The notes beneath the pieces are model-generated. The model was not told where the DNA came from, ran no database searches, and worked only from the letters and a program-made list of their open reading frames with translations. Shown here piece by piece: positions 19,192 through 42,578 of a stretch of DNA of 53,944 bases. The translations under genes were made by a program, and so were the position numbers. How positions within the stretch are numbered: position 1 is the stretch's first letter; each line of letters starts with the position of its first letter. The DNA lies in the NCBI GenBank assembly GCA_017436865.1, contig JAFSCH010000038.1, positions 1 through 53,944 of the forward strand, given 5' to 3'. The stretch is from Lachnospiraceae bacterium. GTDB lineage: Bacteria; Bacillota; Clostridia; Lachnospirales; Lachnospiraceae.

Positions 19192-19220
19192 TTGAAACCC
19201 TTCTCCCTATATGCTATGAT
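19192..19220 (+). promoter_or_regulatory. pyrBI promoter
   Basis: TTGAAA (19192-19197) and TATGAT (19215-19220) are 17 bases apart, placing the start near 19227 and leaving a leader of about 210 nt before pyrB. Confidence 0.85.
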
Positions 19221-19260
19221 TAGAAAAGTATGTTGAACCGATAGAAAAGGAGATTTTATC

Positions 19261-19377
19261 ATGGCTGTATTCACTGGTAATGCGAGAAAACTTTATAGTA
19301 ATCATTCCAGACAGTACGATACTTTTATTTCTTTTTCCATTGTCAGACATTTTGATTTTTATAATGTAAATAGTTAA
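19261..19377 (+). CDS. Putative pyrBI leader peptide (38 residues)
   Basis: An ATG at 19261 follows AAAAGGAG at good spacing and opens a 38-codon frame ([17 protein letters not shown]..., ending FYNVNS). The mRNA has U-rich tracts (CTTTTATTTCTTTTTCC and TTTTGATTTTTAT). Its stop codon touches the first base of a terminator hairpin. This layout matches enteric pyrBI control, in which a ribosome close behind a polymerase slowed by low UTP blocks the terminator. That the peptide is translated is inferred from the ribosome site and arrangement only; the amino-acid sequence itself need not matter. Confidence 0.65.
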
Positions 19378-19403
19378 AGAAGAGATTATTCTCTTCTTTT
19401 TTT
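19377..19403 (+). terminator. Attenuator hairpin upstream of pyrB
   Basis: AAGAAGAG, loop ATTATT, CTCTTCTT followed by a T-run, 33 bases before the pyrB ATG. It begins at the leader-peptide stop codon, so a terminating ribosome would cover its 5' arm. Confidence 0.88.
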
Positions 19404-19436
19404 GCGCACATTCGATTTTATATAAGGAGGATTCTT

Positions 19437-20357
19437 ATGAGACACTTAATGAGCCCACTGGATTTTTCCGTGGAAGAACTGGACAAGCTATTTATGCTTG
19501 CCGATGATATCGAACACAATCCTGCAAAATATGCACATGCTTGTGCTGGTAAAAAGCTTGCAACTTGTTTCTATGAGCCTAGTACTAGAACACGTTTAAG
19601 CTTTGAATCTGCTATGCTGAACCTTGGTGGCAATATCCTTGGCTTCTCTGACGCCGGTTCTTCTTCTGCCGCAAAAGGTGAAAGCGTATCTGATACGATT
19701 CGCATGATTTCCTGCTACGCAGATATCTGTGCCATGCGTCATCCAAAAGAAGGTGCGCCAATGGTCGCTGCAACTAAATCAAGCATTCCTGTAATCAATG
19801 CAGGTGACGGTGGACATCAGCACCCTACCCAGACACTGACTGACCTTCTTACTATACGTGCCATCAAGGGACGTTTAAACAATTTCACTATAGGTTTATG
19901 CGGTGATTTAAAATTCGGAAGAACCGTACATTCCTTGATTAACGCACTGGTTCGATATGACAATATTAACTTTGTATTCATCTCTCCGGATGAGTTAAAG
20001 ATTCCTGAGTATATTATCGAAATGCTTCGTGAAAAAAGCATTCCATACCGTGAAGTTACTGCACTGGAAGATGTTATGTCCGAGTTAGATATACTTTACA
20101 TGACAAGAGTTCAAAGGGAACGTTTCTTCAATGAAGAGGACTATGTACGCTTAAAAGACTTCTATATTCTGAATAAAGAAAAGATGGAACTTGCTAAAGA
20201 TGATATGATTGTCCTACATCCATTGCCTAGAGTAAATGAGATTTCCGTAGAAGTAGATGATGATCCAAGAGCTGTATATTTCCGTCAAGTTCAGTACGGA
20301 GTCTATGTCAGAATGGCATTACTTCTCACATTACTCGAAATCAAAGTTGATTATTAA
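19437..20357 (+). CDS. pyrB: Aspartate carbamoyltransferase catalytic subunit
   Basis: PyrB joins carbamoyl phosphate and aspartate in the first committed step of pyrimidine synthesis. The 306-residue length is normal. The carbamoyl-phosphate loop [16 protein letters not shown] (about residues 47-62), the SSAAKGES 80s loop, the HPTQTLTDL segment and HPLPRVNEI are all intact. AGGAGG precedes the ATG. It is followed 17 bases later by pyrI. Expression is probably governed by the leader attenuator. Confidence 0.98.
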
Positions 20358-20374: not shown

Positions 20375-20809
20375 ATGTTAAATGTAGGAAAAATTGAAGA
20401 AGGCTTCGTATTAGACCATATAAAAGCTGGAAAAAGTCTTAGCATTTATAAGCATTTAGGCTTAGACAAGCTTGACTGTACCGTTGCCATCATTAAAAAT
20501 GCAAAAAGTGAAAAAATGAGAAAAAAAGATATTTTAAAGGTAGAATGTGATATCAATACCTTAAATCTGGATATCTTAGGATTTATCGATCACAATATCA
20601 CAGTTAATGTAATCAAGAACTGTGAAATTGTTCAAAAATTACCTCTTTCACTTCCAAAAGAGATTAAAAATGTCTTAAAATGTAAAAATCCTCGTTGCAT
20701 CACTTCAATTGAGCAGGAATTACCACATATTTTTGTTTTAACTGATGAAGTAAAGGAAGTATATCGTTGTAAATACTGTGAAGAGAAATATGGAAGTAAA
20801 GAAATTTAA
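20375..20809 (+). CDS. pyrI: Aspartate carbamoyltransferase regulatory subunit
   Basis: PyrI binds CTP/ATP and zinc and assembles with PyrB into the allosteric holoenzyme. The 144-residue protein has the N-terminal nucleotide-binding domain (HIKAGKSLSIYKHLGL, DILGFIDHNITVNVI). The C-terminal zinc domain has four cysteines in CKNPRC and CKYCEEKYG. A GGGAGG ribosome site precedes the ATG. It is coupled to pyrB and followed by a terminator. Confidence 0.96.
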   Translation: MLNVGKIEEGFVLDHIKAGKSLSIYKHLGLDKLDCTVAIIKNAKSEKMRKKDILKVECDINTLNLDILGFIDHNITVNVIKNCEIVQKLPLSLPKEIKNVLKCKNPRCITSIEQELPHIFVLTDEVKEVYRCKYCEEKYGSKEI

Positions 20810-42494: not shown

Positions 42495-42578
42495 TGCAGG
42501 AGATGGGACTTGAACCCACACGGTATTGCTACCACAGGCACCTGAAGCCTGCGCGTCTGCCAATTCCACCACTCCTGC
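42495..42578 (-). tRNA. tRNA-Leu, anticodon CAG
   Basis: The minus strand folds into an 84-nt class II tRNA: acceptor GCAGGAG/CTCCTGC, anticodon stem CAGGC/GCCTG with loop TTCAGGT, a long variable arm and T-arm GGTTCAAGTCC. CCA is not encoded. It reads CUG. Confidence 0.95.

Follow-up and report, generated by a model that had tools for sequence, protein, structure and literature searches.

In Firmicutes, pyr operons are usually controlled through transcription termination by PyrR, as in Bacillus (RF00515), and the rph-pyrE attenuation of E. coli provides a basis of comparison for those relatives of the present locus in which a nitroreductase-like gene stands before pyrB. E. coli ribosomes are described as blocking terminators that lie close behind a stop codon, for which pyrBI makes use of pauses (PMC4824070), and tight coupling across PyrL prevents the pyrBI terminator (PMC5021804). 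In amino-acid attenuators, according to the first of these accounts, leader gene and terminator are separated by more than 20 bp (PMC4824070). Bacillus polymerase is reported to outrun ribosomes (PMC13323073), and in the tlrB (yxjB) leader of B. subtilis translation is described as having to start before an SD-hiding hairpin is completed, with pausing giving the time (PMC6851288). A 2010 survey presented regular leader peptides as new for Firmicutes, and its main text is without the word pyrB (PMC2965389); among the matches listed in the open-licence PMC literature, none dealt with pyrB leader attenuation in Lachnospiraceae or with a nitroreductase-pyrB attenuator. Here we describe the pyrB leader of a Lachnospiraceae bacterium, which is probably a translation-coupled transcription attenuator of pyrBI, UTP being its most likely signal.

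Anatomy of the pyrB leader

The window, by which we mean the whole 53,944-nt stretch analysed (contig JAFSCH010000038.1 of assembly GCA_017436865.1), carries the leader on its forward strand. A promoter at 19192..19220 (TTGAAA-17-TATGAT, 10 of 12 consensus matches with a TG extension preceding the -10) is followed by the Shine-Dalgarno sequence (SD) of a leader ORF, AAAAGGAG, read at 19245..19252, and by the ORF itself, whose 38 codons occupy 19261..19377 from the ATG at 19261 to the TAA at 19375-19377. Two U-rich stretches, at 19322..19337 and 19350..19361, stand out in the sequence and its T profile, and the ORF reaches an intrinsic terminator, the putative attenuator, at 19376..19403. Its 10-bp hairpin, AAAGAAGAGA-TTAT-TCTCTTCTTT, spans 19376-19399 at about -11 kcal/mol and is followed by a T-run ending at 19403. 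Beyond it, the pyrB SD (AAGGAGG, 19424..19430) leads into pyrB at 19437..20357, the aspartate carbamoyltransferase catalytic chain (TIGR00670, above cut-off), and then into pyrI at 20375..20809, the regulatory chain (NF002063, above cut-off). The whole-leader fold of the window was not exceptional (z -1.31).

When we re-read the coordinates, the promoter, SD, 38-codon ORF, two U-rich stretches, terminator and pyrB reported in the first-pass annotation were all in place. So were the elements of the E. coli pyrBI-like layout it had recognised, namely an SD-led ORF, a U-rich stretch and an ORF reaching an intrinsic terminator directly before pyrB. Its description of a stop codon touching the first base of the terminator was right as to closeness and slightly off in detail, since the TAA overlaps the terminator stem by 2 nt. 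Elsewhere in the window, two tRNA matches of equal Rfam score lie 115 nt apart (42771 and 42886), with a third match on the opposite strand at 42495-42578.

The same annotation had seen no PyrR-type antiterminator, and our searches agree with it. No Rfam PyrR site scored above gathering in the window, RF00515 had no match in the whole of the window's own genome, and no PyrR site was found at the eight leader-ORF loci tested; the model does match one class-level relative (L257) and is thus able to detect such sites. PyrR itself exceeded its cut-off in 0 of 38 genus genomes and in 5 of 200 sampled family genomes. The best match to the PyrR model in the window's own genome, at 38.8 bits against a cut-off of 138, was rejected as PyrR and identified as hypoxanthine phosphoribosyltransferase (HGPRTase, TIGR01203). 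In that genome an integrase-like ORF, recognised by eye (L277:336-2275), adjoins pyrE, as if a mobile element lay beside it.

Relatives of the leader and drift of the encoded peptide

We collected pyrB neighbourhoods from four sources: the best 80 loci among the matches listed in a named genome collection; 38 genomes of the genus, the window's own included; 108 of the 187 family genomes that had a match, each from another genus; and 48 class-level loci, of which 42 belong to other families. The pooled 268 loci gave 257 distinct upstream regions. Within the genus, a near-complete pyrB match was absent in 6 of the 38 genomes and a usable upstream region was available in 32. An SD, a short ORF and a hairpin precede pyrB in 20 of these 32 when they are read by eye and the ORFs are located by peptide. 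Automated classification assigned 16 to the short-ORF type, the difference arising from a weak SD in L084 and from the automated choice of another hairpin in L091, L111 and L112. Eight of the 32 have no attenuator-like hairpin (L090, L094, L095, L096, L099, L100, L103 and L104), and within this group a looser finder returned hairpins of -4.6 kcal/mol in L104 and L003, the latter being the same as L090. Two more upstream regions, L101 and L109, end at contig ends. L089 keeps promoter, SD and hairpin and is without the leader ORF, so that it resembles a natural deletion of that ORF. L113 is rearranged, the 5' arm of its hairpin being the leader SD and the ATG lying in the loop; read by eye, the ORF from that ATG overlaps the pyrB start. 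Beyond the genus, the layout of SD, short ORF and hairpin is also present at two loci (L016 and L135). In L091, positions 1-128 match part of a TwoAYGGAY RNA (RF01731), about 316 nt before pyrB.

In a midpoint-rooted pyrB tree of 39 rows, the leader layout is present on branches close to the base of the genus, and the hairpin-less genus genomes form two groups; eight label changes are counted when the outgroup and the cut and odd rows are included. We infer that the layout was ancestral in the genus and was then lost twice. The first-pass annotation had proposed comparing the leaders of relatives, expecting ORF, SD and stop-to-hairpin distance to be kept while the peptide drifts, and had named relatives lacking the ORF or its ribosome site as evidence to the contrary. 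The comparison came out mostly as predicted: ORF, SD and the ending at the hairpin are kept and the peptide drifts. Most genus leaders retain both ORF and SD; L089, L113 and the eight hairpin-less upstream regions are the contrary cases.

A second arrangement is found in 69 of the 257 distinct upstream regions, where a gene with a conserved nitroreductase tail precedes a hairpin and pyrB; only the L010 gene was scanned (PF00881), and the remainder were recognised by the tail pattern. Many of the loci L009-L081 show a nitroreductase-like gene ending a few nucleotides before a hairpin that directly precedes pyrB, as in L010:2381-3001. The stop-to-stem distance is 1-16 nt in 63 of the 69, the picked hairpin starting at or before the stop in the other six, and the hairpin ends at most 50 nt from the pyrB start in 43. 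In the family sample the type accounts for 19 of 108 loci, with 8 more having the tail and no hairpin found. These leaders are U-rich only in about their last 24 nt. The type is absent from the window, and the genome's nearest nitroreductase (53% identity) is on a different contig. The two genes that lie farther upstream in the window match, by eye, those of L010, and an M14 peptidase occupies the nitroreductase place.

We measured 21 leaders, comprising 19 distinct genus leaders (the L112 upstream region is identical to that of L111) together with L016 and L135, all selected because an ORF had already been seen in them. A simple scan placed the ATG 32-45 nt from the end of the -10 in 17 of the 21. 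The ATG lies 81-121 nt from the stem, and the frame is open as far as the hairpin in all 21, which had been chosen for a visible ORF. The stop codon falls anywhere from 9 nt before to 108 nt beyond the start of the stem (stop-to-stem -108 to +9 nt), being within -2 to +9 nt in 14 leaders, while in the other 7 the frame extends deeper into the hairpin or beyond it. In leaders as AT-rich as these an open frame is by itself not rare, occurring in 0.09 of dinucleotide shuffles for the window and in 0.08-0.50 across leaders. The combination of SD, ATG and a frame open to the stem is found in 0.002 of dinucleotide shuffles of the window leader and in 0.001-0.009 for the representatives, 11 of 12 of which pass; L084 fails because its SD is weak, and neither L089 nor L113 passes.

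Among 20 close pairs that share lineages, the substitutions at codon positions 1, 2 and 3 numbered 105, 122 and 94; because they are spread about evenly, no peptide-level selection is visible. Most aligned leader bases are in register, with compensated frame shifts in some pairs that place bases up to 21 off, and none of 111 substitutions introduced a new stop, which under neutral drift has p 0.026 in what is a weak test. With E allowed up to 10 the leader peptide matched 0 Pfam families, and with E up to 100 BLASTP produced no alignment to E. coli PyrL. By eye, Phe, Ser, Ile and His abound in the leader peptides, which share no C-terminus.

These observations bear on two alternatives. Attenuation in which ribosomes stall at amino-acid codons, or in which the nascent peptide gives the signal, would suit a leader ORF that precedes a biosynthetic operon and encodes peptides of this composition. 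Against it, substitutions hit all codon positions, no codon run is common to the leaders by eye, and U-richness alone explains the Phe codons; moreover, the terminator distance of more than 20 bp given for amino-acid attenuators (PMC4824070) differs from the -2 to +9 nt of 14 leaders here, the rest of which run on. We regard stalling as very unlikely. Alternatively, the ORF might be a small-protein gene with its own terminator, pyrB being transcribed from a separate promoter, and promoter, SD and terminator do form a complete unit, with a distance from stop to terminator such as ordinary genes show. The T-run and the pyrB ATG, however, are only 33 nt apart, which is too short for another promoter, so that transcription most likely enters pyrBI through the terminator; with no Pfam match and no peptide-level constraint seen, a small-protein gene is the least probable explanation we considered. 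We note that closeness of stop and hairpin is nothing unusual in this DNA: stop-to-stem distances range from -6 to 64 nt for the 11 window genes with a terminator found. Since ordinary genes show similar closeness, we dropped the adjacency of stop and hairpin as evidence of coupling.

The U-rich tract and the leader ribosome site

The T fraction is 0.20-0.31 beyond 84 nt before the stem, compared with 0.48-0.61 within 60 nt of it. In the last 48 nt of the leader ORF, T makes up 0.51, 0.48 and 0.65 of codon positions 1, 2 and 3, compared with 0.19, 0.32 and 0.31 in pyrB. T becomes more frequent toward the hairpin at each of the three codon positions, and C is low, at 0.08-0.20 within 60 nt of the stem. 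A requirement for U at the RNA level combined with a requirement for translation would leave such a pattern of T content and substitutions. The composition also invites an explanation in which leader translation mainly shields a pyrimidine-rich leader from Rho, with the hairpin a constitutive brake that is not specific to UTP; targets of Bacillus Rho are reported to be rich in C and U (PMC13323073), and the leader is strongly U-rich. Excess C, however, is part of the target score in that report, whereas C is low near the stem, and an intrinsic terminator is present; we consider protection from Rho quite unlikely as the main role. TTNTTT is a NusG-type motif, of which the leaders contain 25 against 33.9 expected. 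Only the forms without a sixth T are slightly enriched (19 against 13.0 expected, p 0.04), and we set this motif aside as evidence.

A pure RNA switch, in which an antiterminator or a ligand-binding leader structure controls the hairpin, leaving the ORF incidental, has in its favour that the U-rich tract can pair with the purine 5' arm: in the window leader this pairing reaches -7.3 kcal/mol against a shuffle mean of -5.6, and in L085 it comes to -7.6 against -7.8 for the hairpin. Over all leaders, however, the pairing of arm and tract is no better than with permuted partners (+0.13 kcal/mol, median p 0.63), and in 21 of 21 the hairpin is the stronger of the two. As its pairing with the hairpin arm did not surpass that of permuted partners, an antiterminator was rejected. 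As no Rfam family scored above gathering at the window leader or at the leaders of the eight loci, and the open frame is kept, we judge such a switch unlikely.

The segment that does match the tract is the leader ribosome site. RNAalifold on small clusters first suggested an SD helix and prompted permutation tests; since the idea came from viewing folds, the p values that follow are post hoc. In the fold of the window leader, 19244-19254, which contains the SD, pairs with 19327-19337, and 19239-19242 extends the helix by pairing with 19339-19342, giving a predicted 5' strand at 19239..19254 and a 3' strand at 19327..19342 that lies mostly within the first U-rich stretch. Across 11 lineages, the SD region pairs more strongly with its own tract than with those of other leaders, by a mean of -2.4 kcal/mol (post hoc median permutation p 0.003-0.005, largest 0.03 across choices of representatives); within the genus the value is -2.0 kcal/mol (post hoc median p 0.01, largest 0.10). 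No such match with the own tract was found for the segment before the SD (median p 0.15), the early ORF (0.54) or the pyrB SD (0.97). The 60 nt nearest the hairpin carry the effect (p 0.003), whereas the 5' part of the ORF does not (p 0.58).

Because the ribosome site matches its own U-rich tract best, the tract may close that site while it is being made, and the U-rich stretch may also time ribosome loading. In the window leader, predicted accessibility of the SD falls from 0.76 to 0.12 once the tract is added. Closure beats shuffled tails at the 0.05 level in only 5 of 21 leaders, and in 9 the value against shuffled tails is above 0.2, so that closure is not predicted everywhere. Tentatively, the U-rich tract could be both UTP sensor and lock, folding back on the leader SD as the polymerase makes it, a possibility that we advance with more doubt than confidence. 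At low UTP, slow synthesis would then leave time for a ribosome to load, and fast synthesis would shut the leader before any ribosome arrives. The first-pass annotation had the anatomy of this leader right and missed both the possibility that the U-tract closes the SD and the nitroreductase variant.

A probable coupled attenuator among known systems

The reading that we favour, a translation-coupled attenuator of pyrBI, draws on the anatomy, its recurrence in relatives, a frame kept without a kept peptide, the lack of PyrR and the SD complementarity, all of which are legible in the DNA; translation of the ORF, polymerase pausing, a response to UTP and a timing role of the helix would be its working parts, as we infer them. 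UTP is the likely signal, given the U-rich tract and an operon whose products make pyrimidines. With ample UTP, the polymerase would cross the U-rich part of the ORF quickly with no ribosome close behind, the hairpin at 19376-19403 would form, and transcription would end before pyrB. With scarce UTP, the polymerase would slow in the U-rich stretches and a ribosome on the 38-codon ORF would catch up and cover the 5' arm of the hairpin, on which the stop codon lies, allowing the polymerase to continue into pyrBI. As a possible refinement, 19327-19342 would pair with the leader ribosome site at 19239-19254, in which case the ribosome would have to load before that strand is made. If the polymerase outruns ribosomes here as in Bacillus, a pause or an SD lock would have to create the coupling.

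Attenuation of this kind in a Firmicute bears on whether polymerase and ribosome couple in this phylum, and the leader offers an answer to how pyrimidine synthesis may be controlled in a family mostly without PyrR. Should the tract act as both sensor and lock, UTP-sensing attenuation would be workable where polymerase outruns ribosomes and, together with the nitroreductase variant, would be a main pyrimidine control of this mostly PyrR-less family.

Among the known systems, PyrR attenuation in Bacillus (RF00515) shares the control of a pyr operon and differs in its regulator, there being no PyrR above cut-off and no PyrR site here. Amino-acid leader attenuators place the terminator well downstream of the leader gene and have an antiterminator that competes with it, features that this leader does not show. 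The tlrB leader is likewise a Firmicute leader ORF, with a terminator blocked by the ribosome as proposed here, and differs in its tylosin stalling at an RYR motif, its 9-residue peptide and a NusG-dependent pause described as shown (PMC6851288). The nitroreductase-pyrB relatives resemble rph-pyrE in that a full gene ends just before the hairpin, pyrB then following, and differ in both the upstream gene and the pyr gene; that type is absent from the window.

The nearest likeness is to E. coli pyrBI and PyrL, with which the leader shares the control of pyrB-pyrI, an SD-led ORF of similar size and a U-rich stretch before an intrinsic terminator; the ATG-to-stem distance, measured alike, is 88 nt in E. 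coli pyrL and 81-121 nt here. In contrast to pyrL, whose stop lies 27 nt past the hairpin, the stop here is usually at the hairpin, the hairpins are mostly weaker (-5.9 to -16.7 against -15.3 kcal/mol), the U-rich part is longer and may close the SD, and the host belongs to a Firmicute family mostly without PyrR. Given the missing sequence match to PyrL, the leader would work like pyrBI attenuation without detectable sequence kinship.
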